Source: Candidatus Nitrospira nitrificans
GTDB taxonomy: Bacteria > Nitrospirota > Nitrospiria > Nitrospirales > Nitrospiraceae
NCBI RefSeq assembly: GCF_001458775.1
Contig: NZ_CZPZ01000032.1
Coordinates: forward strand, 1-64,000
Length of the DNA stretch: 64,000 nucleotides
Direction of reading: 5' to 3'
Part shown: piece by piece, positions 15,043-39,449 of the stretch
How positions within the stretch are numbered: position 1 is the stretch's first letter
Layout of the letters: each line of letters begins with the position of its first letter
Notes under the pieces: generated by a model
The model's database searches: none
What the model was told of the DNA's origin: nothing
The model's input: the letters and a program-made list of their open reading frames with translations, nothing else
Made by a program: the position numbers and the translations under genes

Positions 15043-15044
15043 TC

Positions 15045-15812: not shown

Positions 15813-15814
15813 CC

Positions 15815-17070: not shown

Positions 17071-17150
17071 CCGGACTTGTTTGCGGACGTGGCGGGAAAG
17101 ACCAACCTAGATATACATTGATATATATTGGTGTCGGAGAGAGGGGTGCG

Positions 17151-17789: not shown

Positions 17790-17805
17790 CGTCGTTTGCG
17801 GAATC

Positions 17806-19014: not shown

Positions 19015-19221
19015 CCGATCATCCGGTTCCCATACCACTAGGACAGTTCCCAGTCTCGCGATCATACGGTCTAGGAGAGAGGATGTTCACCACGACATCT
19101 TGCACAAGTGCTTGACTTCATGTGGTTCATGTGTGAAACTCCACCCAAATTTAGCACCTAGTGCCGGTCGGTCCTGTACGTAGGCCAGCTGCTAATGAGG
19201 CGTGAACGAAGGAGACCATCT

Positions 19222-21168: not shown

Positions 21169-21227
21169 TTCGGCAGTGAAACGTAAAAGGTGAGCGGTAA
21201 ACAGTAGGGGGCTAAGCGGTTCAGACG

Positions 21228-22412: not shown

Positions 22413-22522
22413 CGGGCGCTGTGAAGACATAGTCACACTCACCGATAATCAAGCTTCCCACTCTTGTACAAAAGAAACGATTGACGCGCTTTCACCGCGT
22501 CATGTATTTGTGCCTCTGAATC

Positions 22523-23869
22523 ATGGAAGCCAAGCCTACCATCAGCCGACTCAGTGAGTTCATCAGATCTCCCTTGTCTGTAAGAGTGGTGAAGGTCGGT
22601 CTTATGATCGCGGCAGCGGTGCACGGCTACATCATCTCTTTTGGGCGGTCATTTCACTTCCGTGACATCGATATCCATCGCGAGATCGGACGGCGCTTTC
22701 TCTCAGGGGAATATCTCTACGCGAACGATTACTGTTACATGTATTTACCAACGACCGGCATCTATTTCTCCCCATTGCTTATCCTGAACAGAAACCCGAG
22801 CCTGGCCCTGCGGTACGCGGTCGCTGTCGGATGTTTGGTCATCACTGTCATGCTGTTCCACCGCATGTTGTGCGGCAGATCAGACATGAACGTGTGGAGT
22901 CGGCTCGTGGTCGGCATCGGCGCAGGGCTGTTGACCCTGCAATTCATCTTGAATGATCTTGATGACGGCGGCCCCCATCTCATCCTGTTGGGGATTCTGG
23001 CCGGCGGAATCTACGCGATATGGGTTGGGAGAGAGCGGCTGGGAGCGGCGTTGGTTGGGTTTGGCATCGTGCTCAAGATTACCCCGGCGCTCTTCGTGCT
23101 GCTGTTCCTTTGGAAGCGGCAATGGCGAGTCGCCTCGTACACGATGCTCGCGACGATCTTGTGGGTTCTGCTGCCCGTCCTCTATATGGGACCCACGAGT
23201 TGGTGGGAACATCACACGGAATGGACCAGGAATGCCGTGTTATCCGTGCTTGATCGGCAGGCAGAGGGTCGGCAGGAAAATGAGCTTCAGAAGGCGAACC
23301 TCTCGCTCCGCCATACCATGTTACGGTATTTGGTGACATATCCGCCGACTCATCGGCTTCGGCAGGTGGATCCGGGATATCAACCGGTATTAGATCTGCC
23401 GTCTCCCGTCGCGAACGGGATCTTTGGGGTTGCCGCGCTCAGCCTGCTTGGTGTATTTGCGTGGTCGAGTCGCCGGGCGTTTCAAGGGCCGGGAGATCCT
23501 ACGTGGGCAAGGGATTGCGCCGGAACCTTGGTCTTGGCCCTATTATTTTCTCCGATCACCTGGGACCAGCACCTGGTGTGGATGATTCCGGCGGCCTGTG
23601 TCGTCGTAGCGGCCGCAGCGAGATTGAGCGGAGCGTTAACCCGCACGGGATATATCATGCTGGCCGTGTATGTGGTGTTGACCATGGTCTTGAATTACGA
23701 GGTTGTGGGTTCAGCCAAATGGGAAGCGCTGAAAAGTTATCATCATCTTGGCATTGCCATGCTGATCCTGTATGCGCTGTTTCTGAGCAGCCGAGGCACA
23801 GGGAGCGATCTCGGCTCGCGTCTTGGGAAAATGCCGCCCGGCCACTCCCGCATGGTCCGTGACACCTAG
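22523..23869 (+). CDS. GT87-like (DUF2029) membrane glycosyltransferase
   Basis: A 448-residue polytopic membrane protein with about 9-10 hydrophobic segments. It resembles the DUF2029/GT87 group of GT-C glycosyltransferases, which use polyprenyl-phosphate sugars (the family includes mannosyltransferases). Visible features: an early periplasmic loop with acidic residues (HFRDIDIHREIGRRFLSGEY), GIVLKITPALFVLLFLWKR and a late SPITWDQHLVWMIP motif typical of the family. The sugar donor and acceptor are unknown. It sits between ispG and hpnH, so transfer to a hopanoid or polyprenyl lipid is possible but only suggested by context. Confidence 0.7.
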   Translation: MEAKPTISRLSEFIRSPLSVRVVKVGLMIAAAVHGYIISFGRSFHFRDIDIHREIGRRFLSGEYLYANDYCYMYLPTTGIYFSPLLILNRNPSLALRYAVAVGCLVITVMLFHRMLCGRSDMNVWSRLVVGIGAGLLTLQFILNDLDDGGPHLILLGILAGGIYAIWVGRERLGAALVGFGIVLKITPALFVLLFLWKRQWRVASYTMLATILWVLLPVLYMGPTSWWEHHTEWTRNAVLSVLDRQAEGRQENELQKANLSLRHTMLRYLVTYPPTHRLRQVDPGYQPVLDLPSPVANGIFGVAALSLLGVFAWSSRRAFQGPGDPTWARDCAGTLVLALLFSPITWDQHLVWMIPAACVVVAAAARLSGALTRTGYIMLAVYVVLTMVLNYEVVGSAKWEALKSYHHLGIAMLILYALFLSSRGTGSDLGSRLGKMPPGHSRMVRDT

Positions 23870-23976
23870 CACCCTGCTCCGGCCATGCTTGCGTGCTTAT
23901 GCCGAAACATTTCGTCGTAGCGAATTTGCCCGACTCATGAAGTTGTGGTCTGGCTGGTGATAGCTGTAGTCTCGGG

Positions 23977-24006
23977 TTGTGTTCCCGAAAACGAAGCGAC
24001 TATAAT
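23977..24006 (+). promoter_or_regulatory. promoter of tRNA-Cys
   Basis: A perfect TATAAT at 24001-24006 lies 12 bases before the tRNA, with TTGTGT at 23977-23982 and an 18-base spacer. Confidence 0.7.
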
Positions 24007-24017
24007 GCACGTTCCGA

Positions 24018-24092
24018 GGCGCCGTACCCAAGTGGTAAGGGAGCAGTCTGCAAAACTGCGATGCAGCGGTTCGAACCCGCTCGGCGCCTCCA
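24018..24092 (+). tRNA. tRNA-Cys (GCA)
   Basis: A 75-base cloverleaf. The acceptor arms GGCGCCG (24018-24024) and CGGCGCC (24082-24088) pair perfectly. The anticodon stem-loop GCAGT-CTGCAAA-ACTGC gives anticodon GCA. The T-arm is GCGGTTCGAACCCGC. The discriminator base is T and CCA is encoded. No variable-arm anomaly is seen. Confidence 0.97.
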
Positions 24093-24384
24093 TACCAACC
24101 TTTGGTTGACCCGCGCGCTATTTAACGCTTTATGGTGACTGGCGCGCGCGGATAAACTCCTCAAGTGTCCGGCTATTCACTGCGCTTGTGCCGCCGCGTT
24201 CGATTCAAATCGCGGCGAATAGGTACTTCCCCACCATTAGGCTCTCATTCTTCATTCGCACGATCCCGCGCTTTCAGGTTCGGCGCGAATGGATTACTTC
24301 TTGCTGTTCAGCGGATGGAGCGATGGGATCTTTTCCATGCGTCTGTGTGACGGCTGGAAGACCAGGAAATGGAAGACGTAAAAA
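24093..24384. other. intergenic stretch between tRNA-Cys and the hpnH promoter
   Basis: No gene is supported here. A short GC-rich inverted motif (GCGCGC...GCGCGC, about 24113-24148) follows the tRNA and may help end its transcript. Confidence 0.4.
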
Positions 24385-24413
24385 TTGACGCTTCTCAGGT
24401 GAGATGTTACAAT
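24385..24413 (+). promoter_or_regulatory. promoter of hpnH
   Basis: TTGACG (24385-24390), a 17-base spacer and TACAAT (24408-24413) form one of the best sigma70-type promoters in the window. It implies a 5' untranslated leader of roughly 90 bases before hpnH. Confidence 0.7.
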
Positions 24414-24512
24414 CCCGACCATTCTTGTGCTTCCAAGTGCAGCTACGGTTCGTAGCTGTTCATATATACAGGGCCGAAAGAACAACAACGCGAACTAGTT
24501 AAGGAGAACGGA

Positions 24513-25529
24513 ATGGCTGTTCCGATTTCCCAGATGTATACCGTGGCGACGTATGTGCTCTCCCAGAAGCTGAAGGGAGTGAAGCGATATCCCTTGGTAC
24601 TGATGCTCGAACCACTCTTTCGATGCAACCTGGCGTGCGCGGGCTGTGGGAAGATCCAGTATCCCGATCATATCCTCGACAAGCGGTTGACGCCTGAACA
24701 ATGCTGGGCGGCGGCGGAAGAATGCGGAGCGCCCATGGTGAGTATTCCAGGAGGGGAGCCGCTCATTCATCCTGAAATCGCCAAAATCGTCCAGGGCTTG
24801 GTGGACCGAAAGAAATATATTTATCTTTGTACGAACGCCATTCTCTTGGAGCGAAAGCTGGACGAGTATCAGCCTTCGAAGTACCTGACCTTCAGCGTCC
24901 ATATGGATGGACTCAAGGACGAACACGATTTAGCCGTCTGTCGGGACGGGGTCTATGAAGTGGCTGTCAGGGCGATCAAGGCGGCACTCAAGCGCGGGCA
25001 TCGGGTGACGACCAACACCACCTTATTCGATGATGCGAATCCAGAGCGGGTCAGAACATTTTTCGATGAAATGATGGCGCTCGGCGTCGAAGGGATGACC
25101 ATCTCTCCAGGGTATAGTTATCAAAAGGCCCCGGATCAGCAACATTTTTTGAAGCGGGCGCGAATTCAGGAACTCTTTTCCAAGATCCTTGCTCGCCCCA
25201 AGCCGGGTTGGCAGTTCAATCAATCACCCTTGTTTTTGGATTTCCTTATGGGTCGGCGTGAGTATCAATGCACGCCATGGGGGAACCCAACGTACAACGT
25301 CTTCGGATGGCAGAAGCCCTGCTATTTACTCCAAGAAGGATATGCCGCGACCTTCCAGGAACTGATGGACTCGACGGAGTGGGAGCGGTATGGGACCGGC
25401 CGAAATGAAAAGTGCGCCGATTGCATGGTGCATTGCGGCTACGAGGCATCGGCCGTTGAGGATACGTTCAGCACGGCCTCTGGATTTGTGAGGACAGCTA
25501 AATTGACCCTGTCGCCTACGTCTCGTTAA
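24513..25529 (+). CDS. hpnH: adenosyl-hopene transferase HpnH (radical SAM)
   Basis: HpnH (338 residues) adds the 5'-deoxyadenosyl group of SAM to hopene, making adenosylhopane, the committed step to bacteriohopanepolyols. The radical-SAM cluster motif is CNLACAGC (Cys38, Cys42, Cys45), followed by the GGEPL SAM-binding motif. The C-terminal segment has extra cysteines (CTPWGNP, KCADCMVHCGYE) typical of the family. AAGGAG sits seven bases before the ATG. Its partner hpnG is 9 kb upstream, and a dedicated promoter precedes it, so it is probably transcribed separately from shc-hpnG. Confidence 0.96.
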   Translation: MAVPISQMYTVATYVLSQKLKGVKRYPLVLMLEPLFRCNLACAGCGKIQYPDHILDKRLTPEQCWAAAEECGAPMVSIPGGEPLIHPEIAKIVQGLVDRKKYIYLCTNAILLERKLDEYQPSKYLTFSVHMDGLKDEHDLAVCRDGVYEVAVRAIKAALKRGHRVTTNTTLFDDANPERVRTFFDEMMALGVEGMTISPGYSYQKAPDQQHFLKRARIQELFSKILARPKPGWQFNQSPLFLDFLMGRREYQCTPWGNPTYNVFGWQKPCYLLQEGYAATFQELMDSTEWERYGTGRNEKCADCMVHCGYEASAVEDTFSTASGFVRTAKLTLSPTSR

Positions 25530-26929: not shown

Positions 26930-27442
26930 ATGAATGTGAGGATAGGCTCAATTCACGCGGTGTTGGTTATGAGTCTCGGGCTGTTGTCGAGTTGCGGTGG
27001 AGAGCAAGGCGGAGAGGGGCCGATCGTGCCGCCGCCTCCCCCTCCGGCTGAATATGCCGATAAACATATGCCGGCAGACTGGTGGGGGGATGCTCAGAAG
27101 TTTGAGCAAGGGCGGAAGTTGTACGTGGGTGAGACAAATCCCGACGTGAATTGTGCCAGCTGCCATGGCAAAGACGGAAAGCCGGTGAAGGCGGGAGCCA
27201 CCGATTTCAGAAATCCTGAGAGGATGAAGCTTTATTCAGACTCTGTGTGGTTCTGGCGCATCTCCGAGGGTGTACCCAATACCAAGATGAAGGGCTGGAA
27301 GAGCAAGCTCTCAGATGAAGATCGTTGGAAGCTTGTGCTGTATGAGCGGAATTTTGCAATGGCGGGAAAGACCTGGAGTGAAGAGAAAAAGCAGTGGGTC
27401 GATTCCGGAGGTCTTGCGGTAGTCTTGACCGACGCTAAGTAG
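26930..27442 (+). CDS. monoheme cytochrome c lipoprotein
   Basis: A 170-residue lipoprotein: signal peptide with lipobox LLSSC (Cys22), then a proline-rich spacer (PPPPPP) and a class I cytochrome c domain. Heme is bound by CASCH (residues 75-79); NTKMKGW near residue 95 probably supplies the Met ligand. It should sit in the periplasm, tethered to a membrane, and shuttle electrons. It opens the respiratory cluster and lies 52 bases before bd-like oxidase 1, the likely partner. Confidence 0.88.
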   Translation: MNVRIGSIHAVLVMSLGLLSSCGGEQGGEGPIVPPPPPPAEYADKHMPADWWGDAQKFEQGRKLYVGETNPDVNCASCHGKDGKPVKAGATDFRNPERMKLYSDSVWFWRISEGVPNTKMKGWKSKLSDEDRWKLVLYERNFAMAGKTWSEEKKQWVDSGGLAVVLTDAK

Positions 27443-27494
27443 GGTGTGTGGATTATATGGACAGAAAGAAAAGCATAGGGGGCATCGAGGCACC

Positions 27495-29207
27495 GTGAAA
27501 AAACTGTCGCGCAGTCTCCTGACTCTTGCAGCAATTCTGGCGCCGTGTGTGCTTGGTGTCGCCGGCGTGAGCGCCCAGGAGTCTGGGATGTCTCCGGTGG
27601 AGTTTCCGTACACGGGTAATCGAACGGCTGTATGGATCGTCGCCCAGCTTCATATCTTGTTTGCCGCGTTCATCCTGGGCGCGCCGATCTTTGTCGTCAT
27701 TTCGGAGTGGTTGGGCTATCGGAAGCAAGACCCACGTTATGATCGACTGGCGAAAGAGATCACAAAGGTCACGGTCATCCTCTTCAGCATGACGGCTGTG
27801 ACCGGCGGTTTGTTTATTTTCGTCCTACTTGCGGCCTATCCGCAGTTTACCACGTCGTTCATTAATCAATTTTATATGGTCTTTGCGATTCTCTATCCGG
27901 CGTTGTTTATCGCCGAGACCATTCTCATGTATGCCTATCTCTATACATGGGATATGTGGAAGGGCGAAAAGAAAGGGCGTCATATCGCCTTGGGCGTGCT
28001 CTTGAATCTCGTGTGTTTGCTGATCTTGTTCGTGATCAATGGCCCCACGTCGTTCATGAATACACCGCCGAAGGCCGAGGGGGTTTCGCCTCAAGATTTT
28101 ATCGCCGCGGCTACCTTGTGGGATAAGATTGCCAATCAAAGTTGGTTCCCTCTGAGTCTTCACCGGATTGATGGGAATGTGGCGTTCGGGGGTTTTATCG
28201 CCGGGATGATCGCTGCCTACATGTATATGGGGGCCAAGACGCAGGAGGAGAGGGCCTACTACGATTGGATGGGTTTCGCCGCCATTTGGATTGCGGTGGG
28301 TGGGTCATTGTTACAGCCGTTCACGGGACTCTTGTTGGCCTACGAAATGTGCGATTACGATTTTTCGTTTTGTCCGTACATGATGGCCGACCAGCTGTCC
28401 ATGTTCTTTGAAATGCAGGGGGTGATGATCGGGCTCCTGTTCTTGGCTATCAACTATTACAGTTGGCTCAGCCTCAAGCGAATCGAAGGCGCGGACAATG
28501 TTCGGATCACCATTCTCGCGCCTATCGTCTTGGTGGTGTTGCTCCCCGTCACGATGTGGGTCATGAATACCTATTGGATTCCAGATCCGATGTCCCTGGT
28601 ATTCCTCCTGCCCTTAGCGGTATCGCCGTTCCTGCTGGGTCGGTTCGTTCCAATGACCGTTTCCGCGAGGACCGTCATCAAGATCGGCTTTATCGTCATG
28701 CTCCTCAGCGATGCCGTCTGGCTGACTCCGGCCGGATTTGTGGCCACCGGCACCGATATGCCGGATGAGATGAAGTTGCCGGAGGGATGGGACTATCTGG
28801 CGTCGATGCCGGCAAAACTTTCTGCGATTTTGACGTTGGTGTTCGTAACGGTTGTCAACTTCGTTCTGTATAACCGGACCATCAAGCAAGGCACGATTCT
28901 CTGGGGAAAAATCGACTTCGCGTCGCAATTCGTGTTGATTTTCCTGGCCTTCACCTCGACATGGATCATGGGTTTGATGGGGGCGGTGCGGTCATTGCTC
29001 AAAAAATATTTCCATACCTATAGTTTGGTGTCGGATCTCGGCCCGGAATCGTTTACTCCGACGCTTTCGTATTCCGCGGGATGGATTACAGCGATTACCG
29101 TCGTGTTTATCGCGGTCGTTAGCGTGGCTGCGCTTGTGGCTCTTCGGACTTCCGTTGCGCGGGTGCGGGAGCCGGAGGGAAGCGCCGTTCCGATCGCGGC
29201 CAAATAA
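27495..29207 (+). CDS. cytochrome bd-like oxidase subunit 1 homologue
   Basis: A 570-residue polytopic membrane protein related to CydA. Helix I has the conserved heme-ligand His (IVAQLHILFAAF, His53), and a later LSLHRIDGNVAFGG matches the second CydA heme His region. It is longer than CydA (about 520 residues), begins with a cleavable signal-like segment (ending VSAQ), and no CydB partner is adjacent. Two cysteines in CDYDFSFC are absent from its paralogue at 33178. The GTG at 27495 is chosen for the signal-like N-terminus, with GAGG close upstream. In Nitrospira, proteins of this group have been proposed as the terminal oxidase because classical heme-copper oxidases are missing; enzymatic function here is inferred. 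Confidence 0.8.
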   Translation: MKKLSRSLLTLAAILAPCVLGVAGVSAQESGMSPVEFPYTGNRTAVWIVAQLHILFAAFILGAPIFVVISEWLGYRKQDPRYDRLAKEITKVTVILFSMTAVTGGLFIFVLLAAYPQFTTSFINQFYMVFAILYPALFIAETILMYAYLYTWDMWKGEKKGRHIALGVLLNLVCLLILFVINGPTSFMNTPPKAEGVSPQDFIAAATLWDKIANQSWFPLSLHRIDGNVAFGGFIAGMIAAYMYMGAKTQEERAYYDWMGFAAIWIAVGGSLLQPFTGLLLAYEMCDYDFSFCPYMMADQLSMFFEMQGVMIGLLFLAINYYSWLSLKRIEGADNVRITILAPIVLVVLLPVTMWVMNTYWIPDPMSLVFLLPLAVSPFLLGRFVPMTVSARTVIKIGFIVMLLSDAVWLTPAGFVATGTDMPDEMKLPEGWDYLASMPAKLSAILTLVFVTVVNFVLYNRTIKQGTILWGKIDFASQFVLIFLAFTSTWIMGLMGAVRSLLKKYFHTYSLVSDLGPESFTPTLSYSAGWITAITVVFIAVVSVAALVALRTSVARVREPEGSAVPIAAK

Positions 29208-29246
29208 TCACCGTTTCGAACGCCTGCCAAGGCAACGGGAATTTGC

Positions 29247-30065
29247 ATGGGGAACATAATCAATAAGCTGGGTTTGGGGTTAGTGGTTGGCGGTGTGCTT
29301 GTCGCCATCACGCACTCGCAGGAGCTGCCGTTCTCTTTCCAATTGCTCTTCTTCATCGTCTCGTTGGTCGGGGCATTGGTTTTCATACTGCTTGACGCGC
29401 GGCCGCTCGGTACGATGAGCGGTGGGAAGTCCCTATTGGCCGTGATCGCGTTCTGGGTCTTCATGCTGACCGTGTCTGTCGCTGGACCGTCCCTCTTGCC
29501 TCAGTTTGACCCCGAAGACGAAAAGGCAAAGATCGGCAAGTTGTTGGATAAAGAGCGAAAGCAGTCCGCGCAGGGTAAGGCGGAAGAGTTGATTGCCCGA
29601 GCCAAGGCTCTCGATGGGCAAGTGAAGGCTCTGGAGGACCGGCTTAAGGGACTGGGCGGCGGTCAGGCTGCAACGGCAACCTCGGCGCCTCCTGCTGGGA
29701 ATAAGCCTCCTTCGACAGCCGGTGCGTCTGCCGGGGGTGACGGCGATATTATGAAGGTGGGTGAGGAGCAGTGGCAACTGCAGGAATGTTACAACTGCCA
29801 CAAGCTGAGGGGCGAAGGCGGAAAGAAACGCGGCCCCGAATTGGATAATATCGGTACCTTGCTGACTGTCGATGAGATTCAAACGAAGATTGCGGACCCT
29901 AAGAGCTTTATGGCCGAGGGATATGAGAAGGAATGGCAGAAGGGCATTATGCCCAACAAGTTTAAGGATCTCATGGACCCCAAAGAAATGCAGGCCCTTG
30001 CCGCCTGGTTAGGGACCTTCAAGAACACCTCGGTGAATACCCCCAAGCCGATCAAGAAGAACTAA
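29247..30065 (+). CDS. membrane-anchored monoheme cytochrome c
   Basis: A 272-residue protein with three N-terminal hydrophobic segments (residues 8-20, 31-50, 63-80), a charged helical region and an Ala/Pro/Gly linker, and a C-terminal cytochrome c domain with CYNCH (181-185). NKFKD/MPNKF near residue 240 holds a Met that could be the sixth ligand. It would hold a heme on the periplasmic side next to the oxidase. Its TAA stop overlaps the ATG of the Rieske gene (TAATG), so the two are coupled. Confidence 0.87.
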   Translation: MGNIINKLGLGLVVGGVLVAITHSQELPFSFQLLFFIVSLVGALVFILLDARPLGTMSGGKSLLAVIAFWVFMLTVSVAGPSLLPQFDPEDEKAKIGKLLDKERKQSAQGKAEELIARAKALDGQVKALEDRLKGLGGGQAATATSAPPAGNKPPSTAGASAGGDGDIMKVGEEQWQLQECYNCHKLRGEGGKKRGPELDNIGTLLTVDEIQTKIADPKSFMAEGYEKEWQKGIMPNKFKDLMDPKEMQALAAWLGTFKNTSVNTPKPIKKN

Positions 30066-31000
30066 TGCTGCAACCGAAGCTGAAATCCAAGGTCCGGTGC
30101 ACCGACCACGACATTGGTGAAGTCACGAAGGTCGTGCTCGATCCGCTTTCCCACGAGATCAGCCACATCGTGGTGTCGATGAACGGGAGCGGCGAACGGC
30201 AAGTCGCCATGGGCCATGTCCAGGTCGTGACGGACGATCTTGTGCAGTTGCGCGCGCCGTCAACGGAAATTCTCGCGTTACCTCCTTTCAAGCGGGACGA
30301 CTATGTCACCACGCATGAAGTGGAGATCTCGCATCTCGAAGACCATATCCATGTGACTCCGGGCGAGGTGTTGGTGCCTCTGCCGGATTTGGAGAAAAGT
30401 GTCAAACGCCGCACGTTTTTCATGAATTTCACCAACGTCATCGGGTTTTTGATCGGTCTTCCCATTGCGTATCCGATCGTCCGCTTTCTCATGAAGCCGA
30501 TGTACGCGGATTTCGACAACGAATGGTTGAAGGTCGGGAATGTCAGCAAGATCAAGCAGGACGACGTTGGTGTGCAGTTTAAGTACAAAAAAAAGGTCAA
30601 AGAAGTGTATATGCCGGAGGCCGAAGTCGATAAAAACGTCTGGGTGTTGCGCGCCACTCCGGAGCTTCTTGAGAGAGTGTATCAAGGGAAGGATGCCGAA
30701 TTCCGTGATGCCAGAGGGAGGACGATCTGGACCAACAAGAAAGACGTTCCCTACCTGGCGTTCTCCGGCAAGTGCCCGCATTTGGGGTGCGCGTTCAAGT
30801 GGCGGCAACATAAATCACTCGGACAGGTGTTTCTCTGCCCGTGCCATCTCAGCATTTACGATGCTGCGGGACAGGTGCTCGACGGTCCGGCTCCGCGCGC
30901 GCTCGACGCCTTGCCCGTGAGGGTTTCTGCGGCGGGGGAAGTTGAGGTCATCGACATGGAGTTCAAGGCCGGTACGAAGTCGCAAATTCGGATCATTTGA
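30065..31000 (+). CDS. Rieske iron-sulfur protein with N-terminal PRC-like domain
   Basis: A 311-residue fusion. Residues 1-85 look like a PRC barrel (KVRCTDHDIGEVTKVVLDPL, then HIVVSMNGSGERQVAMG), followed by a second linker strand region, a membrane helix (NVIGFLIGLPIAYPIVRFLM) and a C-terminal Rieske domain. The [2Fe-2S] ligands are Cys237/His239 (CPHLGC) and Cys258/His261 (CPCHLS), with Cys242-Cys260 as the stabilising disulfide. It should accept electrons from quinol at the Qo site of the cytochrome b encoded next. Most Rieske proteins have only a short cytoplasmic N-terminus, so the PRC-like part facing the cytoplasm is unusual. Confidence 0.85.
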   Translation: MLQPKLKSKVRCTDHDIGEVTKVVLDPLSHEISHIVVSMNGSGERQVAMGHVQVVTDDLVQLRAPSTEILALPPFKRDDYVTTHEVEISHLEDHIHVTPGEVLVPLPDLEKSVKRRTFFMNFTNVIGFLIGLPIAYPIVRFLMKPMYADFDNEWLKVGNVSKIKQDDVGVQFKYKKKVKEVYMPEAEVDKNVWVLRATPELLERVYQGKDAEFRDARGRTIWTNKKDVPYLAFSGKCPHLGCAFKWRQHKSLGQVFLCPCHLSIYDAAGQVLDGPAPRALDALPVRVSAAGEVEVIDMEFKAGTKSQIRII

Positions 31001-31015
31001 AAGCTGGCGGTCGAT

Positions 31016-32143
31016 ATGGATAGTAAACAGTCATCTCCCGCAACGATTTCCGATCATCAGCCCAGCACGATGGAAAAGCTCGTCGCGTTCTTGGACGAAC
31101 GGGTCGGCCTCAAGGAAATGCAGGCCAAGATGCTCAACGAGCCGATCCCCGGCGGCTCTCGCTGGGCCTATGTGTTCGGCTCTATCTTGCTCTTCATCTT
31201 TGCGATGCAGGCGCTGACGGGTACGCTGCTCATGTTCTATTATGTGCCGACGGCGGACCATGCATGGGCCAGTACGCAATTTATCATTCACGATGTCGAT
31301 TATGGTTGGTTCATCCTGGGCTACCATTTCTGGGGGTCCAGCGCCATGGTCGTCTGTGTGATCGCTCACATGTCGCAGGTGTTTCTGTGGGGTGCCTATA
31401 AAAAGCCGAGAGAGTTGCTCTGGATCGTTGGTCTGGCCCTATTGGGTGTCGTCATTACCTTCGGCTTTACCGGCTATCTCCTGCCCTGGGATCAACGGGC
31501 GTTCTGGGCGACGACGGTTGGTGTCGAGATTCTCGATAAGACCCCCGTTATCGGTGATTTTATCGCTCGGTTTTTGAAAGGTGGGCCGACTCCCGGGCAG
31601 ATGACCTTGAGTCGTTTTTTTGTCCTGCATGTCATGATTCTCCCGGCCGCGCTCATGGCCCTTGCCGGGTTGCACATATTCCTGTTTCGCGTGGCCGCTC
31701 CCGCCGGTCCCTTCACCGGCACGGTGGAGGAGATCAAGGCAAAGACCGACTATTTCTTTCCCCGTCAAATTTGGAAAGACATGGTCGGGATGGCGTTCGT
31801 CTTCTTCAGTATCTGCGCATTGGCTCTCTGGGAGCCGGTGGTCCTCTTGGATGAGGCAGCGCCCGACCCCGGGGACTACCATCCCGAGCCTGAATGGTAT
31901 TTTCTGTTCTACTTCCAGCTCCTTCGGTTGAAACTGTTCGCCGGCGAGTTTGGCCAATTCATGGGGGCCGTGGCGTTGCCCGTCGCCTTCATGGCTTTGC
32001 TCGTCGCGCTTCCGTTCATCGACAAGGATCCCGAGCGAAATATTTTCAAACGGCCGATCGCCCTCATCAGCTGGATTGCCATCATGGTGGTCATCGTCTT
32101 GTTCACGGTGGCGTCGGTGATTAACCGGGAGTTCCTAGACTGA
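31016..32143 (+). CDS. cytochrome b of a bc-type quinol oxidoreductase
   Basis: A 375-residue integral membrane cytochrome b, joining both halves (b6 plus subunit IV) in one chain. Heme ligands: His104/His118 in helix B (13 residues between) and His205/His220 in helix D (14 between). The 13/14 spacing is that of b6-type proteins; mitochondrial-type cytochrome b has 13/13. The Qo-site motif is PEWYF (292-296), and Pro-Trp in GYLLPWDQRAFWATT is conserved. With the Rieske gene and the adjacent membrane cytochromes c, it forms a complex III. It lies 15 bases after the Rieske stop. Confidence 0.92.
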   Translation: MDSKQSSPATISDHQPSTMEKLVAFLDERVGLKEMQAKMLNEPIPGGSRWAYVFGSILLFIFAMQALTGTLLMFYYVPTADHAWASTQFIIHDVDYGWFILGYHFWGSSAMVVCVIAHMSQVFLWGAYKKPRELLWIVGLALLGVVITFGFTGYLLPWDQRAFWATTVGVEILDKTPVIGDFIARFLKGGPTPGQMTLSRFFVLHVMILPAALMALAGLHIFLFRVAAPAGPFTGTVEEIKAKTDYFFPRQIWKDMVGMAFVFFSICALALWEPVVLLDEAAPDPGDYHPEPEWYFLFYFQLLRLKLFAGEFGQFMGAVALPVAFMALLVALPFIDKDPERNIFKRPIALISWIAIMVVIVLFTVASVINREFLD

Positions 32144-32161
32144 TTCTGGTATACGTGGGCT

Positions 32162-33163
32162 ATGGCTGAAGAACGCGACTCCATGTCTCCAACGAAGATA
32201 GGGTTCAGCATCCTCTGGTCCGCCTGTTGGACCGGTATGGTGGTGAAGTCGGTGTTTGCCGTTCTTCTCTTGACGATGGGATTGGTGCATTTCGAAGGGA
32301 GATTCGGGCTTGCCGTGGTGATGTTGCTGATCAGCCCGGTCACCGTCTTTGCGATTCCGATCATCATGGCCGTGTTTGGGACGCACTTTGGCGAAGGGAT
32401 CGGCCTCGAGATCCTGTTCTGGCTCTCGATCCCGGTCGATATTTGGGCCCTCGGCCTGGTTGGCCGCACGTTTTTTCTTGAGCGACTCAGGAAAGAGCCG
32501 CCCGAAGGGCTTGGACTTGCCATTTGGTGGAGAGCCGCTCTCGTGGGGGCCTTCTTTCTCCCGGCGCTCTGGGGTGCCGTGAGTTTCGTCACGGATAACG
32601 CGATTACCGCGTCTCACTCGATGGCCGAAATAGAAAGTCTTCGGCACCTCTTTGACAACGGCCTGCCGATAGCCGAACGGATAGGTCTTGAACTGACCAT
32701 CTGGGGAACCATCTCTTCAGCCTTACTGACCGTCCTCTCGCTGATCGGAGTCTCCATTTTTGGACAAATCATTCGGCGCATTTCGGAAGATTGCAAACCG
32801 ACTTCAGAAAGTTATCAAGGACTCATTACGCGCTGGGACCTGATGCGTGTGCCGACCGATCAAGGGCTGCTGTTGACGACGCTCGCGGGCGTGGGCATCG
32901 TGTTTTCGGTGATGTTTTGGTCGATACTGCCCGTGACGACTCCCCATCCGCACGACTGCTGTAAAAAACCAGACGCACGGGTCGAGCCGGCATTCAAACC
33001 GGTCGAGTCGTTGAACAGCAGCGCTCAGCGTGTTGCGACGCTAGCGGCGCAAATCGAGACCATGGAGCAGCAAAAGGTCGCCGCAAAAGATCAAAAAACA
33101 AAGGGCAAGGGGAAGACCGAAGGCGGAACGATCGTGGATTCAACTGCCAAGGCGAAACCGTAA
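32162..33163 (+). CDS. unknown polytopic membrane protein in the respiratory cluster
   Basis: A 333-residue protein with about six hydrophobic segments (for instance FAVLLLTMGLVHF, LAVVMLLISPVTVFAIPIIM, LGLAIWWRAALVGAFFLPAL, LLLTTLAGVGIVFSVMFW) and a cytoplasmic-type charged C-terminal tail rich in Lys (TKGKGKTEGG). There is no CxxCH or other cofactor motif, but a HPHDCCKKPD stretch after the last helix has His and Cys residues. It is tightly packed between cytochrome b and bd-like oxidase 2 on the same strand, so it is probably a structural or assembly subunit of this complex. I do not recognise the family. Confidence 0.7.
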   Translation: MAEERDSMSPTKIGFSILWSACWTGMVVKSVFAVLLLTMGLVHFEGRFGLAVVMLLISPVTVFAIPIIMAVFGTHFGEGIGLEILFWLSIPVDIWALGLVGRTFFLERLRKEPPEGLGLAIWWRAALVGAFFLPALWGAVSFVTDNAITASHSMAEIESLRHLFDNGLPIAERIGLELTIWGTISSALLTVLSLIGVSIFGQIIRRISEDCKPTSESYQGLITRWDLMRVPTDQGLLLTTLAGVGIVFSVMFWSILPVTTPHPHDCCKKPDARVEPAFKPVESLNSSAQRVATLAAQIETMEQQKVAAKDQKTKGKGKTEGGTIVDSTAKAKP

Positions 33164-33177
33164 CTTTACGAGGTGAT

Positions 33178-35040
33178 GTGGTGAGTGCCATACGACAAGA
33201 GACGGAAACGATTCAATCAGCTTTTCGAACCGTCAGAAACCAGGGCGGATGGTTCGGAGGTCTCTTGTTGACGGCAGTCTGGCTGGCGCTTCCTTCGCTC
33301 GGCATCGCGGCGGAAGGCACGGCGGCCGGTCCGACGGAATATCGGGATATCCCCTATGTCGGCAGTCGGAATCTCGTATGGATCGTGGCGCAGTTGCATC
33401 TCCTGCTTGCCGGATTTGTCTTGGGCGTGCCCATCTTCGCATGGCTCTGCGAGGTGATCGCTTGGCGAGGGGGCGAAAAACGTTACGATAAGCTCGCAAA
33501 AGAGTTTACCAAGCTCCTGACCTCTGCCTATGCGACCACCGCGTTGTTCGGCGGGATCTTGTTGTTTCTCTTAGTCTCGTTTTACCCCAAGCTGATGAAC
33601 TATTTGACGGACGTCTTTTTCCCTTCCTTTTTGCTCTATTGCTTCCTGTTCTTATTGGAAACGGCGACGCTGTATCTGTACTGGTACGGATGGGATGCCA
33701 TGCAGCACGGCAGGAAGAAGACCTTGCACGTGTTTCTTGGGTTTCTCCTGAACTTCTTCGCTTTGTTCATTATGATTGTGCCCAATGCCTGGGCCACGTT
33801 CCAGTCCAGCCCGGTCGTGATTTCAGACGGGACCGCCTTTGAAAGGGCCTGGGCCGCGACGTGGAACCCGACGTGGTGGCCGATCAATATCCATCGGCTC
33901 ATCGCCAACGTCGTGCTGGGCGGATACATCTGTGGAGCCTATGCAGGCGTCCGGTACTTATCGGTCAAGAGCGCCGAAGAACGGGAGCATTACGATTGGA
34001 TGGGGTATGTCGGCAACTTTATCGGCGTGTTCGGTCTGCTGGCCCTGCCGTTTGCCGGCTATTGGCTCATGCGGGAGATCTACCAGTACAACCAGCAGAT
34101 GGGCATTACGCTGATGGGGGGATTCCTGTCCTGGCTCTTCATCATTCAGGCCATGTTGATCGGGGTGCTGTTCCTCGGATCGAACTATTACTTCTGGCTT
34201 GGGATTACCTATCGCATCCCCGGGTCGGAGCAAAAATACCGCCGAGCCATGTTGATGATGCTGATCAGTTTATTGCTGTGTTTGGCTGTGTGGATGACCC
34301 CGCACTCGCTGGTCGCCAGCATTGAAGAGGCTCAGAAAATGGGAGGGGCTCATCACCCGTTGCTTGGGGTTCTCGGTGTCATGTCGGCTAAAATGACGGT
34401 GTCGAATCTCATGATTCTGATTACCTTCATGAGCTTCGTCATGTATTGGCGGGCTGGGAAGCAAGATACAGCGGGATGGGCGAAGCTGGGAAAGGCGGTC
34501 ATGGGCGCCGTGTTGGTGCTGGCCAGCATCGCCGTCATCGTCCTTGGGGTATGGGGCTACTTTGTCCCGGCGATCGTTCGCATCAATTATTTCTCTACCT
34601 CTCAGGTCGCGATCGTGGGCTTCGTCATTCTCACGATCACCCCCTTGACAGCGCTCTTGCTCAAGAGTGCCAAGACGACGACGGAGATGGTCTGGGGCAG
34701 CATGCCCCCGCGCGCCGGCTATGCCCTCGTCCTCAATGCCGTCATGGTCATCCTCCTCATGACGTTGATGGGTTACGCCCGGTCCTCGTCCCGCGTCCAT
34801 TGGCATGTGTATGGGGTGATGCGCGATACGTCGCCGTACGCCTATTCGCCGGCTCTCGGCAGCGCCTCGCTGATTATGGCCTTCTGCACGTTTTTCTTCT
34901 GCATTCTCGTGGCGTTTATCTTCTGGGTCGCCACCATGGGCGATAAGTACAAGACCGCTTCCGGAACAGGAAAGGGAGACTTGCCGCACGGCATCCCGGC
35001 GATGGCCGGAGGGGCTCCGGAAGAGCGGCCACAGCAATAG
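33178..35040 (+). CDS. cytochrome bd-like oxidase subunit 1 homologue, second copy
   Basis: A 620-residue paralogue of the protein at 27495. Both share an extra N-terminal export-type segment (here ending GIAA), the PYVGSRNLVWIVAQLH block (His74 as heme ligand), NIHRLIANVVLGGY as the second His region, HYDWMGY, and a late His motif (VHWHVYGVM). CydA-type Met ligands could lie in FIIQAMLIGVLFLGSNYYFW. The two differ in the central loop: this copy lacks the CDYDFSFC cysteines. Starts GTG 33178 and 33181 are both possible, with GAGGTG upstream. Having two unlike bd-like chains around one complex III suggests a heteromeric membrane core or two enzymes with different donors. Confidence 0.8.
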   Translation: MVSAIRQETETIQSAFRTVRNQGGWFGGLLLTAVWLALPSLGIAAEGTAAGPTEYRDIPYVGSRNLVWIVAQLHLLLAGFVLGVPIFAWLCEVIAWRGGEKRYDKLAKEFTKLLTSAYATTALFGGILLFLLVSFYPKLMNYLTDVFFPSFLLYCFLFLLETATLYLYWYGWDAMQHGRKKTLHVFLGFLLNFFALFIMIVPNAWATFQSSPVVISDGTAFERAWAATWNPTWWPINIHRLIANVVLGGYICGAYAGVRYLSVKSAEEREHYDWMGYVGNFIGVFGLLALPFAGYWLMREIYQYNQQMGITLMGGFLSWLFIIQAMLIGVLFLGSNYYFWLGITYRIPGSEQKYRRAMLMMLISLLLCLAVWMTPHSLVASIEEAQKMGGAHHPLLGVLGVMSAKMTVSNLMILITFMSFVMYWRAGKQDTAGWAKLGKAVMGAVLVLASIAVIVLGVWGYFVPAIVRINYFSTSQVAIVGFVILTITPLTALLLKSAKTTTEMVWGSMPPRAGYALVLNAVMVILLMTLMGYARSSSRVHWHVYGVMRDTSPYAYSPALGSASLIMAFCTFFFCILVAFIFWVATMGDKYKTASGTGKGDLPHGIPAMAGGAPEERPQQ

Positions 35041-35095
35041 GTGAAAGTCATGCATCAAGAAGACACCGCACGACACACGTACGAGTTGGAGAGCT

Positions 35096-35719
35096 ATGAG
35101 TGAAGTCGCACAATTACAATTGATCGCACTGTCCATCATTGGGATCGGAATTCTGATCCTGTTGTTCATTAAGGCCGTGTTTATTAGGGTGACGGGGTTT
35201 GTCGCCATCGTATTGGGGTTGTTCTCGCTCATGTCACTCGCCGTTCCGCAGTTGGCGTCTCTCCCTCCGGCCGAGGAAAAGATCGACATCGCCAGCATCA
35301 AGACCCCGACGGACATCGCCGCCATCGGGCAAACGGTGTTCTTCAGCAAAGGCCAATGTGCGCTGTGTCATTCCATCGGCCCAAGTGAATCGGCCCGTTG
35401 CCCGGATTTGAAGGGAATCGGCGCCAAGCTGAGCAAGGATTTCCTCTATGAAAGCCTGACTGATCCTCAGGCGTTCGTGTATCAGGATTATCGTCATGGC
35501 GGCGTGCCGAAGGAATATCCAGCCACGATGCCCGCTATTAATAAGGATCCGATCGGGCTCTCGAAGAATGAAATCTTGGCCGTTATCGCGTTTCTGCAGC
35601 AAATGAGCGGGGAGCCGATCTCTGTCAGCACGTCGGAGCTCGAAATGCCGGGCCAGGCACCGCCGGCCCCGGTCAAAGCAGCCGCATCTGCTCCATTAGC
35701 CATTGCACAAGCGCACTAG
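35096..35719 (+). CDS. membrane-anchored monoheme cytochrome c
   Basis: A 207-residue protein with two N-terminal membrane helices (residues 9-25 and 31-50) and a periplasmic cytochrome c domain. The heme site is CALCH (88-92), and MPAIN about 60 residues later is the likely Met ligand. The C-terminal Pro/Ala tail is flexible. GGAGAG lies before the ATG. It is spaced 55 bases from bd-like oxidase 2 and 9 bases from the next cytochrome gene, so it is co-transcribed with both. Confidence 0.87.
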   Translation: MSEVAQLQLIALSIIGIGILILLFIKAVFIRVTGFVAIVLGLFSLMSLAVPQLASLPPAEEKIDIASIKTPTDIAAIGQTVFFSKGQCALCHSIGPSESARCPDLKGIGAKLSKDFLYESLTDPQAFVYQDYRHGGVPKEYPATMPAINKDPIGLSKNEILAVIAFLQQMSGEPISVSTSELEMPGQAPPAPVKAAASAPLAIAQAH

Positions 35720-35728
35720 GAGGAACAT

Positions 35729-36445
35729 ATGGGCGCGTTAGGGAAACCGATCATACTGATGGTAGCTATGTATGTGTTCCTGAAGTTCGTGCTGCCGAAT
35801 ATCCCAGGCTCAGCGCCCCTTCCCTCCAGCCTCATATTTCTGTATCTCCTGCTGACTGCGGCCGGCATCGTCATTTTTGAGACATTGAGCGGAGAATCAA
35901 AAGATGCCTTTTGGGGACCGATGCAACGGTTTCTGACCGGGGAGAATATCGGAGGGTTGACGGTGCTTCGCTATGGGGTTCTGGTTCTGTTTCCTCTGCT
36001 GGTAGGCTGGCAAACGTACGGCAGCACCGCCTCGAGTGATGCGCCGCCGGCGGAGAGTAGAACGATACATCCTGCGCCGCCCGGGGAGTATACGGGGCTG
36101 TCGAACCCTGTCCCGAAGACTCCGGAAAATATCATGCAGGGCAAAGGGTTTTATGCGGCTTTTTGCTCCCCTTGTCATGGTGGAAATTTTGACGGCAAAG
36201 GGCCTGCCGCAAGAGGGTATAATCCGCCGCCGGCCAATTTTGCCGATCCGACGACGATCGCCATGTTACAGGAAAGTTACCTCTTCTGGCGGATCAAGAA
36301 AGGCGGCGTCGGACTTCCGATCGAGGGCGCGCCATGGAAGTCCGCCATGCCTCGTTGGGAAGCGGAATTGCCGGACGAATGGATTTGGAAGATTATCCTG
36401 GGCGAATACGACGGAGCCCATCAGTCCCCACGAACATGGGAGTAA
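35729..36445 (+). CDS. membrane-anchored monoheme cytochrome c
   Basis: A 238-residue protein with three hydrophobic segments (residues 7-23, 33-50 and 81-94) and a C-terminal class I cytochrome c domain with CSPCH (146-150). SAMPRWEAELPDE supplies a probable Met ligand. The domain resembles that of the lipoprotein at 26930 (both contain a LFWRI/WFWRI block before the Met), so they may be duplicates adapted to different anchors. AGGAGG precedes the start. It is likely the electron donor or acceptor partner for bd-like oxidase 2. Confidence 0.87.
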   Translation: MGALGKPIILMVAMYVFLKFVLPNIPGSAPLPSSLIFLYLLLTAAGIVIFETLSGESKDAFWGPMQRFLTGENIGGLTVLRYGVLVLFPLLVGWQTYGSTASSDAPPAESRTIHPAPPGEYTGLSNPVPKTPENIMQGKGFYAAFCSPCHGGNFDGKGPAARGYNPPPANFADPTTIAMLQESYLFWRIKKGGVGLPIEGAPWKSAMPRWEAELPDEWIWKIILGEYDGAHQSPRTWE

Positions 36446-36539
36446 GGCAGAAAAGCAGTGTGGACAATCTAGCTGGCTACGGGAAAACTCGGTTGACATC
36501 CAAATGTGGCCGGAATTTCCGTACGGTGCTAATGCCAGA

Positions 36540-36690
36540 ATAATTTCCGGCGGTCCGGCAAGGTCGCAGCGAGTGAAGGGGCGAGGCGTACCCTTCGGTA
36601 CGTGGAGCCTCTGAGCCCGCATCGCCGACTTTGCGAGGCGTGCGATGCGAGAACGAAGCTGGCGGACTTTTTCAGCATCCTGCATTAGGT
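36540..36690. repeat. probable dispersed intergenic repeat with nested hairpins
   Basis: A GC-rich non-coding block between two cytochrome-cluster genes. It contains the hairpin GAGGCGTACC-CTTC-GGTACGTGGAGCCTC (36583-36611, two-part stem with a short bulge), a second pair GCATCGC (36619-36625) with GCGATGC (36642-36648), and an end reading GGACTTTTTCAGCATCCTG. I recall similar blocks recurring between genes in Nitrospira genomes, but no second copy occurs in this window. It might act as a transcription attenuator inside the cluster. Confidence 0.5.
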
Positions 36691-36709
36691 GTAGGAGAGC
36701 GAGGGTAGT

Positions 36710-37537
36710 ATGAAACCGGCGACTCAGTTGATGAAGCAGGTTCTGCGGGGTGGAACGGCTGTGATCGCGGCCATGATCATTGGGGGTGTGCCGTTCAGCG
36801 TTGCGCAGGAGAGCGTGGCCGTTCGGGCGACACTTGTGACGGGTGGCCTGCCCCTTGACGATCCGAACGCTGCGGCTTGGAGCAGTGCGGTGCCTGCGAC
36901 ATTTCCGATGTCGCCGCAAGTGCATTGGCCGAACCGCATTCAGGAAGTCACCGTCAAGGACGTCTCGGTGCGCGCGTTGCACGACGGCAAACAAGTGGTT
37001 TTTCTTCTTGAGTATAGCGACCCCAGCCAGGATCCTGACGACGCCGCGGCGTTCGAGTTCATGGTAGGCGACAAAAAGGCCCACTTTGCCCATGGTCAGC
37101 CGATGCTCCAGGTGGAAGGCGGGCCGGTCAATATTTGGTTTTGGAAAAATAAGTCCGACAAGGCCACCGATATGACTGCCAAAGGCTTCGGCACCTTGAA
37201 GCCGCAAACGCATCAAGATGTGAAAGCGAAGGGGACGTACTCGAACGGAGCGTGGAAAGTGGTCTTTTCCAGAAATCTGTCGACCGACCATCCCGACGAG
37301 GATGTCCAAATTACGCCGGGCGAATTTATCAGCATCGCGTTTGCCGTATGGGATGGACGAAAAGATGCCGTCGGTGAGCTGGTTGAAAAGGGGTCTCAAA
37401 AAGCCGTCTCGTCCTGGTGGTATTTCAGAGCCGATGCCCCGCCGGACTACTCCGGCTATATGTACGCGGCCATCGCCGCTGCATTAGCCTTGGGATTTCA
37501 GTTTGTCCTGATCCGAAAACTCAAGAAAGGGCAGTGA
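36710..37537 (+). CDS. NxrC-like heme-binding protein (ethylbenzene dehydrogenase-related)
   Basis: A 275-residue exported protein: signal peptide (cleavage near SVAQ), an immunoglobulin-like heme-binding domain of the EB_dh type, and a C-terminal membrane helix (YMYAAIAAALALGFQFVLIRK) with a basic end. The family contains the gamma subunits of nitrite oxidoreductase (NxrC), nitrate reductase NarI-like NapC-independent enzymes and ethylbenzene dehydrogenase, which bind one heme b through Met and Lys. Candidate residues lie in FEFMVGDKKAHFAHG and the ISIAFAVWDGRKD block. No catalytic nxrA or nxrB is in the window, so here it probably passes electrons to the cytochromes of this cluster. Confidence 0.78.
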   Translation: MKPATQLMKQVLRGGTAVIAAMIIGGVPFSVAQESVAVRATLVTGGLPLDDPNAAAWSSAVPATFPMSPQVHWPNRIQEVTVKDVSVRALHDGKQVVFLLEYSDPSQDPDDAAAFEFMVGDKKAHFAHGQPMLQVEGGPVNIWFWKNKSDKATDMTAKGFGTLKPQTHQDVKAKGTYSNGAWKVVFSRNLSTDHPDEDVQITPGEFISIAFAVWDGRKDAVGELVEKGSQKAVSSWWYFRADAPPDYSGYMYAAIAAALALGFQFVLIRKLKKGQ

Positions 37538-37539
37538 GC

Positions 37540-38565
37540 ATGAAGGCGCCAAGGCTGGGTCTCATAGGATTGGCGGTGGGTGTGATCGGAGGCGTGGCTT
37601 TGATCGCCGGTGGCTGCGCGAGCGAACAGGAAAAGCGAGGCCATGAACTCTATACCCATTATTGCAGCGATTGCCATGGCGAGAGCGGCAAGCAAAACGA
37701 AGGATTCAATTGGTCGTCCATGCCGGATCCAAAGCCGAAGGATCTCTCCAATAAGGGAGAAATGAGTACCTTCAAGGATGAGGAGCTCTTCGCGACCATC
37801 TCGCGGGACATGCTGGATACCAGCGAGGAAGGCGGCGATACGATCGGCGACGACGACTTTGCCGTGCCCACGATGCCGACATTCAAATATACGCTCTCTG
37901 AGGATGAAATTTGGGCGATCGTCGGGCATGTGCGTACGTTGCATGGCATGAAGATGGAGTTTAACGTCGCGGCGCGCAAGACCTCGCTTGAAGAAGGGTT
38001 GAAGACCGCGCAAGCCAAGTTTGAACAGGCCAAACAAGCCTATGAGGCGGCGGAGAAGAAAGCCAGCGACGAAGCGGAGCGGAAGAGTGAGCAGTTGAAG
38101 AAAGATGTCGATGTGGATGAGTCCGTCTATGCGGCTGAACAAGCGGCGATGGGGCAAGCCAAAAAAGAGATGGATGCCGCTCAGGTCGCCCTCAACAATT
38201 TTTCCACGAGACCGGGAAAGGGACTCAGTATATCTAGGCCGGATCTGACGACCAAGCCCGCAGACGTTGCAAAATTGGTCGATCGCGGCAAACGACTCTA
38301 CGAAAATAAGTATGGCTGCAACGGTTGCCACAATGTCGGCGGTGAAGGCGGCAAGATCGGTCCTGTGTTGGATCGGGCTGGCTTTCGATTGAATGCCACG
38401 TGGGTGTATCGTTGGCTCAAGAATCCACAGGCGATGGATGCGCACACGCGGATGCCGGCCTTGGGTTTGAGTGATGCGGATGCCAAAGCCGTGACCATGT
38501 ATGTGGCCACCTTGCGTGCACCGAAGGCGGAGCCCGTAGCCGAGAAGCCGGTCGAAAAACCTTAG
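37540..38565 (+). CDS. diheme cytochrome c lipoprotein with coiled-coil linker
   Basis: A 341-residue lipoprotein: lipobox IAGGC (Cys26), cytochrome c domain 1 with CSDCH (42-46), an Ala/Lys/Glu-rich helical stretch of about 90 residues (roughly 145-235, for example FEQAKQAYEAAEKKASDEAE), and domain 2 with CNGCH (260-264). The long helix would hold the two hemes far apart, as a spacer or arm. The ATG at 37540 lies six bases after a GTG that overlaps the upstream stop; AAGAAAGGG precedes both. Its last four bases overlap the end of the convergent ubiA gene. Confidence 0.87.
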   Translation: MKAPRLGLIGLAVGVIGGVALIAGGCASEQEKRGHELYTHYCSDCHGESGKQNEGFNWSSMPDPKPKDLSNKGEMSTFKDEELFATISRDMLDTSEEGGDTIGDDDFAVPTMPTFKYTLSEDEIWAIVGHVRTLHGMKMEFNVAARKTSLEEGLKTAQAKFEQAKQAYEAAEKKASDEAERKSEQLKKDVDVDESVYAAEQAAMGQAKKEMDAAQVALNNFSTRPGKGLSISRPDLTTKPADVAKLVDRGKRLYENKYGCNGCHNVGGEGGKIGPVLDRAGFRLNATWVYRWLKNPQAMDAHTRMPALGLSDADAKAVTMYVATLRAPKAEPVAEKPVEKP

Positions 38566-39449
38566 CCCGTTCCCGCGAGAAGTCCGACGACAATCGCCAC
38601 ACCGACCCATACGTGTTGTTGGAACATGGCAAAGGCGTGGGTAGGGGTTATTGGCTTTCGGAGCCGCCTGATCTGGAGAAAGAAAAATACCGTCACGCCC
38701 AAAAGCGCTATGTAATATGGCCACCCTAGCTGAGCAAACCACCCTGCAGCGGTCAAGCACGCCAGCATGATACCGAACGCCAAGCCCACGCCTTGGTGAA
38801 CTGAAGACCCGAAGTACAGGGCGGCGGACTTGACCCCAACGCGCCGATCATCCTCCTGGTCCTGGATCGCGTAGATCGTGTCATAGGCTACGGCCCAGGC
38901 CGCGGTTGCTCCAAAGAGACACCACGCCGGGGTGTCCAATTGCCCTTGCACCGCAGCCCAGGCCATGATCGTTCCCCAGCCGAACGCGAGGCCAAGCATG
39001 GCTTGCGGGATATGGATCCATCGTTTGGAGTATGGGTAGAGGGCGGCAAGAAAGACCGCGACCGGGGCGAGCCAGGTCACGATCGGCAGAAGGAAGAGCA
39101 GGAGGCTTGCCGCCATAACAAGCAGTACACTGAGCAGTATCAGCGCGTCGCGTCGCGATAATTCGCCGGAGGCCAACGGCCGCGTCTTGGTCCGGGCGAC
39201 TTGTCGGTCGAACGTTTGATCGGCCAAATCGTTCATGATGACGCCGGCGCTTCGCATGAGGAACGATCCGCCGATGAAAATAATTAAGAGGCGGGGCGGC
39301 GGAATTCCTCGGGCGGCGAGCACGAGACTCCATAGCGTGGGTAGGAGTAAGAGATAGGTGCCGGTTTGGTTCGGCAGCCGGATCAATCGGGCAAGCGCAG
39401 ACCAAAAAATACCCGAGGAGGCGGATGATGACGCGGCCGGACCTGACAT
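38562..39449 (-). CDS. UbiA-family prenyltransferase
   Basis: A 295-residue membrane enzyme with 8-9 helices that attaches a polyprenyl chain to an aromatic quinone precursor. Both Asp-rich motifs are present: NDLADQTFDRQ (first) with TKTRPLASG after it, and YAIQDQEDDRRVGVKS (second). The match is strongest with 4-hydroxybenzoate-type UbiA; in menaquinone users a close relative (MqnP) works in the futalosine route, so the exact substrate is open. It is convergent with the respiratory cluster, overlapping the diheme cytochrome by four bases, which fits a quinone-supply role. Confidence 0.86.
   Translation of the reverse strand: MSGPAASSSASSGIFWSALARLIRLPNQTGTYLLLLPTLWSLVLAARGIPPPRLLIIFIGGSFLMRSAGVIMNDLADQTFDRQVARTKTRPLASGELSRRDALILLSVLLVMAASLLLFLLPIVTWLAPVAVFLAALYPYSKRWIHIPQAMLGLAFGWGTIMAWAAVQGQLDTPAWCLFGATAAWAVAYDTIYAIQDQEDDRRVGVKSAALYFGSSVHQGVGLAFGIMLACLTAAGWFAQLGWPYYIALLGVTVFFFLQIRRLRKPITPTHAFAMFQQHVWVGVAIVVGLLAGTG

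Follow-up and report, generated by a model that had tools for sequence, protein, structure and literature searches.

Eleven co-directional genes on the forward strand (26930-38565 of the window, that is, the whole 64,000-nucleotide stretch of Candidatus Nitrospira nitrificans DNA that was analysed) probably form the main respiratory cluster of this bacterium, in which one of two bd-like chains, bd2, would act as a cytochrome c-fed O2 reductase and complex III would be connected to the same cytochromes c. The potential of nitrite is too high for direct quinone reduction, and nitrite electrons must enter at cytochrome c. In the proposed route, electrons from nitrite oxidation would pass to membrane-tethered cytochromes c, from which bd2 (of the OR-N2 type, NIDE0901-like) would accept them at the periplasmic face and reduce O2 on its bd-type heme core, using protons taken from the cytoplasm. 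Complex III would link the (methyl-plasto)quinone pool to these cytochromes c, working forward for low-potential donors and ammonia oxidation and in reverse from nitrite, and the NxrC-like protein and lipid-anchored cytochromes are probably the electrical link between nitrite oxidoreductase and the membrane. The second bd-like chain, bd1, which is tied genetically to complex III, would probably be an accessory or an A'-type partner. The donor (cytochrome c), the substrate (O2), the direction of flow and any physical complex are inferred. Nitrospira carries out much of the world's nitrite oxidation as well as complete nitrification, and its terminal oxidase is uncharacterised; if bd2 is a cytochrome c oxidase, enzymes other than those of the heme-copper type can also pass electrons from cytochrome c to O2. 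By comparison across genomes, the search for this oxidase is narrowed to bd2, and genomes are identified in which only bd-like candidates remain.

Gene content of the cluster and its host

The genes are tightly packed, with 1-55 bases between neighbours or a one-base overlap, except for a gap of ~265 bases upstream of the NxrC-like gene; scans for promoters and terminators in the cluster gave no clear signal above shuffles. The order begins with a monoheme cytochrome c (26930-27442, +), which is a predicted lipoprotein (LSSCGG lipobox by eye; PF13442, 1e-8) carrying one CxxCH in 63/63 sequences, and continues with bd1 (27444-29207, +), a CydA-like chain of 14 predicted transmembrane (TM) helices (PF01654, E 5.7e-24; 5doq_A, 4.3e-13) published as bd-like_1, for which the exact start codon is uncertain. 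A membrane-tethered monoheme cytochrome c with N-terminal hydrophobic segments (29247-30065, +; PF00034, 1.4e-9) precedes the complex III pair, namely the Rieske [2Fe-2S] subunit (30065-31000, +; PF00355, 7.2e-9; TIGR01416, 2.9e-17, below cut-off) and a cytochrome b having its N- and C-terminal parts on one chain (31016-32143, +; PF00033, 2.7e-48; PF00032, 2.9e-9), so that the Rieske profile and both cytochrome b profiles are represented. The Rieske protein has an N-terminal extension of ~110 residues (30065-30400) that looks PRC-barrel-like by eye and has no Pfam match.

Downstream of an unannotated membrane protein (32162-33163, +) lies bd2 (33178-35040, +; PF01654, 3.9e-13), again CydA-like with 14 predicted TM helices and published as bd-like_2 (NIDE0901-like, OR-N2). 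It is followed by two membrane-tethered monoheme cytochromes c (35096-35719, +; PF00034, 8.8e-8; one CxxCH in 77/77; and 35729-36445, +; PF13442, 5.4e-8; one CxxCH in 75/75) and by an NxrC-like heme b protein with a C-terminal TM helix (36710-37537, +; residues 250-268), published as alt_NxrC_1. Against the gamma-subunit profiles of type II DMSO reductases, this protein scores above cut-off for EB_dh (PF09459, 6e-25), and for TIGR03477 (1.1e-31) it reaches 109.8 bits, with a curated cut-off of 169.85. The last gene encodes a diheme cytochrome c (37540-38565, +), a predicted lipoprotein (IAGGC lipobox by eye) with two CxxCH in 43/43 sequences; its most likely start is ATG 37540 instead of the GTG at 37417 that was first assigned. 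All the parts named in the original prediction, that is, complex III, two CydA-like chains, five cytochromes c and an NxrC-like protein, are real by profile matches and CxxCH counts, but its inventory overlooked the conserved membrane gene at 32162-33163.

The product of this overlooked gene is a 6-TM protein of 333 aa with a near-invariant HPHxCC in its C-terminal tail; it is fast-evolving, lies between cytochrome b and bd2, and has orthologs in 52/52 loci that span the cluster. It gave no Pfam or NCBIfam match, PF02322 (CydB) included, and its AF2 model (pLDDT 69) had no PDB fold match, so that a role as a CydB stand-in is unsupported by the model. Seen only in Nitrospirales, it may belong to complex III or to the oxidase as a small subunit.

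The host genome (4.1 Mb, 99.8% complete) contains an ammonia monooxygenase gene and several genes for NxrA-like proteins, of the type II DMSO reductase kind, that score under the curated cut-off, and its nearest named relatives are Nitrospira; therefore, the host is most likely a comammox Nitrospira. Elsewhere in the window, hopanoid and isoprenoid genes occur together at 12035-25529 (squalene-hopene cyclase, a Mla lipid-transport set, Dxs, GcpE and a radical SAM protein with DUF3463), and a UbiA-type prenyltransferase (38562-39449, -), which could have a role in quinone or heme synthesis, faces the end of the cluster.

Conservation of the cluster and the partners of bd2

A scan of bacterial and archaeal genomes based on bd2 returned 80 loci, and in all 52 that span the whole cluster the 11 genes keep their order and strand, which argues that the cluster is not a product of chance. 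Both N. defluvii (L091) and N. moscoviensis (L102) have all 11 genes in order. The bd2 clade is well supported in the tree, and bd2 relatives were found in 197/197 of the Nitrospirales genomes searched and in 85/198 of the phylum. Outside the order, two genomes from the same class (L118 and L119) carry the cluster intact apart from the 32162-33163-type gene. In one Nitrospira genome (G088, L121, 2817-17420), bd2 is divergent (62% identity, with E161 replaced by S), ~3.3 kb is added between two of the cytochromes c, and the NxrC-like gene was not found in the cluster.

At other loci (L120, L122-L126), a bd2 of 57-63% identity is accompanied by nearby cytochrome c genes and usually by an NxrC-like gene, with bd1 absent and the Rieske/cytochrome b pair either divergent in sequence or not present on the stretch. 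Several of these stretches are short contigs, in which absence is weaker evidence than a whole-genome search; searches of the whole genomes for bd1 returned only bd2- or bd3-grade matches, and five genomes (G331, G329, G324, G302 and G314) have bd2 with no bd1-grade match anywhere. Thus, bd1 is not an obligate partner of the bd2-cytochrome c-NxrC block there. Clear bd1 orthologs were found at a cluster only where they are linked to this complex III (Nitrospirales, L118 and L119). From this distribution, it looks like bd2, its cytochromes c and NxrC are the older unit, to which bd1 and this complex III would have been added in Nitrospirales and near relatives, and partial bd1-like matches farther off in the phylum (G207 and G240) indicate that loss of bd1 in some lines could also have occurred. 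The two chains, which the original prediction describes together, are better separated: bd2 has an extra set of invariant His residues and its own conserved cytochrome c/NxrC block, and bd1 is associated with complex III and, in the window's lineage, is short of one extra ligand through loss.

These results bear on whether bd1 and bd2 together make one heterodimeric CydAA' oxidase, in which bd2 would be the catalytic chain and bd1 would take the structural position of CydB, a tentative reading to which we give somewhat less than an even chance. The two chains are found in the same cluster at every spanning locus, each is predicted to have 14 TM helices, their identity is ~30-40%, an OR-N2 + OR-N1 pair has been proposed (PMC12342949), and the absence of an H376 equivalent from bd1 in the window's lineage (37/61 sequences) might suit a non-catalytic partner. 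However, the five genomes with bd2 and no bd1-grade match weigh against an obligate pair, bd1 retains heme ligands for which a mere substitute for CydB would have no use, and the OR-N1 chain may be one of two further long bd-like chains rather than bd1; these chains, bd3 (638 aa) and bd4, lie in one neighbourhood at 18.7-25.9 kb of contig C36 (L135), as reported for other Nitrospira. The unbroken synteny and the tethered cytochromes c might also be taken to mean that the cluster products assemble into a physical complex III-oxidase supercomplex, as proposed in PMC6606698; we regard this as doubtful, because synteny denotes co-selection rather than contact, and outside the order there are bd2 genes accompanied by neither bd1 nor this complex III.

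The bd-like chains and other candidate O2 reductases

Both chains have the CydA fold, with PF01654 above cut-off for each and a Foldseek top 10 for the bd2 model that consists entirely of CydA chains. In alignment with E. coli CydA (sequence checked vs PDB 6rko), the His ligand blocks are kept, as had been predicted: the equivalents of H19 and H186 are invariant (H70/H240 in bd1, H74/H239 in bd2), and E107 is conserved in bd2 and in 52/61 bd1. Invariant positions comprise H70, H180, H240, M455 and H524 in the 61 bd1 sequences and H74, E161, H184, H239, H271, H376, H392, H393, M402, M531, R535, H541 and H543 in 77/77 bd2, and the invariant Met (M402 in bd2, M455 in bd1) could substitute for M393 of CydA. 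In bd1 and bd2, the helix that carries the heme b595 ligand E445 (GRQPW motif) in CydA contains no Glu, with L or S in place of the ligand; the high-spin site is thus altered, which makes O2 reduction less than certain.

The quinol-binding site shows a further departure from CydA. The equivalent of K252 is F/I or M and that of E257 is M (F309/M314 in the window's bd1, M308/M313 in its bd2), and helices occupy the place of the Q-loop, giving 14 predicted TM helices; the host's own canonical CydA retains the quinol-site residues (K249/E254, same alignment) and E445. Fourteen helices and the loss of quinol residues have likewise been reported for related bd-like proteins (PMC3578206), and for both chains here the alignment supports that the quinol site has been lost. 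The export-type N-termini described earlier do correspond to a hydrophobic segment before TM1, but this segment could be a 14th helix rather than a cleaved signal. In both chains K/R residues are in excess in the even loops (27 vs 10 in bd2, 24 vs 8 in bd1), so that by the positive-inside pattern the odd loops should face the periplasm.

The absence of a quinol site, together with that of a canonical heme-copper oxidase, makes cytochrome c the best inference for the donor, which is also the published view; the original prediction of cytochrome c instead of quinol is therefore supported as regards the loss of the quinol site. Of the two findings named beforehand as refuting it, a conserved Q-loop and a separate canonical heme-copper oxidase accounting for O2 reduction, neither was obtained. 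Profile searches of the host genome found no canonical COX1, no FixO and no AOX, and among the cluster proteins there is no PF00115 (COX1) match. The one COX1-like match in the genome is weak (PF00115, 35.8 bits) and belongs to an orphan ORF for a 502-aa membrane protein at 441 kb of contig C1 (L007), with no FixO in the genome; it is not counted as canonical, and similar weak matches occur in a few other Nitrospirales. The cluster has no CydB by profile search, as originally noted, and the only one in the genome adjoins the canonical CydA on contig C35. This canonical CydAB and a short CydA-like pair could both reduce O2 in the host. The short chains (419 and 437 aa) stand in tandem at ~92-94 kb of C35 (L006/L137), keep a Glu near the E445 position, have a molybdopterin-type protein match some kilobases away, and resemble the OR-N5 pair that has been described next to alternative complex III. 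In four Nitrospirales genomes (G045, G003, G007 and G025; 99-100% complete), the profiles found no COX1, CydB or AOX, and bd2 is present. If these organisms live by O2 respiration, as is the case for nitrifiers, one or another of their bd-like chains must be the reductase, these being the only candidates left. Among them, bd2 is the best candidate for the O2-reducing chain.

The case for bd2 draws on five additional invariant His residues (77/77), three in loop 9 (H376, H392 and H393) and two in loop 13 (H541 and H543), all in loops predicted to be periplasmic, where cytochrome c would dock; they are counted for the main reading. At position 430, the only place where bd1 has a counterpart of the loop-9 His residues, 24 sequences have H (those of N. 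defluvii and N. moscoviensis included) and 37/61 have A, G or N, among them the window's lineage; H524, the counterpart of H543, is kept in 61/61. Lacking this His set and E445, and having orthologs at clusters only with a linked complex III, bd1 might be the more likely of the two chains to serve reverse electron flow, as a module that transfers electrons or reacts with quinone, instead of being an oxidase; a reverse-transport role was raised for bd-like proteins in PMC3578206. This is unlikely in our estimate, since the quinol-site residues are gone and the heme ligands of the bd core are kept in bd1.

A bolder reading makes bd2 a hybrid oxidase: a bd-fold cytochrome c oxidase, able to work independently of bd1, with an added periplasmic copper centre formed by H376, H392, H393 and H541/H543, a centre that published work has put forward for the Nitrospira protein. 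If true, the chemistry of cytochrome c oxidase would also exist in an enzyme that is not a heme-copper oxidase. The invariance and predicted periplasmic location of these residues are consistent with it, as are the Q and F that bd3 of the same genome has at bd2 positions 392 and 541, replacements that agree with a report on Nitrospinae (PMC8026999). We nevertheless consider a copper centre improbable: the fold is bd rather than heme-copper, so that any likeness to CuB ligands would be convergent; Y replaces H541 in L119 and L127-L129, and A replaces H393 in L134; and the AF2 model of bd2 (46 sequences; pLDDT 51.8), whose fold still matches CydA first, is too poor to place the His residues together and is unusable for metal-site or cofactor geometry.

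Relation to known systems

The cluster is already known. The presence of all 11 genes in 52/52 loci, N. defluvii and N. moscoviensis among them, identifies it with the published CIII_1/bd-like_1/bd-like_2/alt_nxrC_1 cluster, for which a cytochrome c oxidase role and a III-IV supercomplex have been proposed. In N. moscoviensis, this cluster is highly transcribed, and bd-like_2 was put forward as the terminal oxidase (PMC6606698; Mundinger 2019). Complex IV of Nitrospira has been described as a member of the bd superfamily without a quinol site that likely uses cytochrome c (PMC12324825), and the oxidase has been assigned to the OR-N type CydAA' (PMC12342949, PMC10839748), for which experimental confirmation is lacking (PMC10839748); none of the papers found contains a biochemical characterisation of the enzyme. 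In light of these proposals, the original prediction is sound in outline, and the novelty it implied is forestalled by PMC6606698, PMC12324825 and PMC12342949. What is added here is the contrast between the five invariant periplasmic-loop His residues of bd2 and the loss of the loop-9 His from bd1 in the window's lineage, the bd2-cytochrome c-NxrC block without bd1 in related genomes, and the four near-complete Nitrospirales genomes in which bd-like chains are the only candidate O2 reductases.

Compared with the N. moscoviensis cluster (PMC6606698), the genes, order and strand are the same, and the differences are in sequence only (bd2 84% and bd1 70% identical), together with the loss of His 430 from bd1 in the window's lineage. 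By its orthology to the genes of N. defluvii and N. moscoviensis, and by the shared gene order, bd2 belongs to the OR-N family (bd-like_2/NIDE0901). As far as that family (Murali 2021) is portrayed in PMC12324825, PMC12342949 and PMC10839748, from which the OR-N1/OR-N2 labels are taken, the cluster shares its bd core ligands, missing quinol site, adjoining cytochromes c and occurrence in Nitrospirota, and nothing sets it apart. The homologous core with H19, H186 and E107 is held in common with canonical CydAB, whereas the bd-like chains have 14 TM helices and lack the Q-loop residues, E445 and CydB. With the heme-copper cytochrome c oxidases, the cluster would share the proposed role of cytochrome c oxidase, but it differs from them in fold, and its proteins are without a COX1 match.
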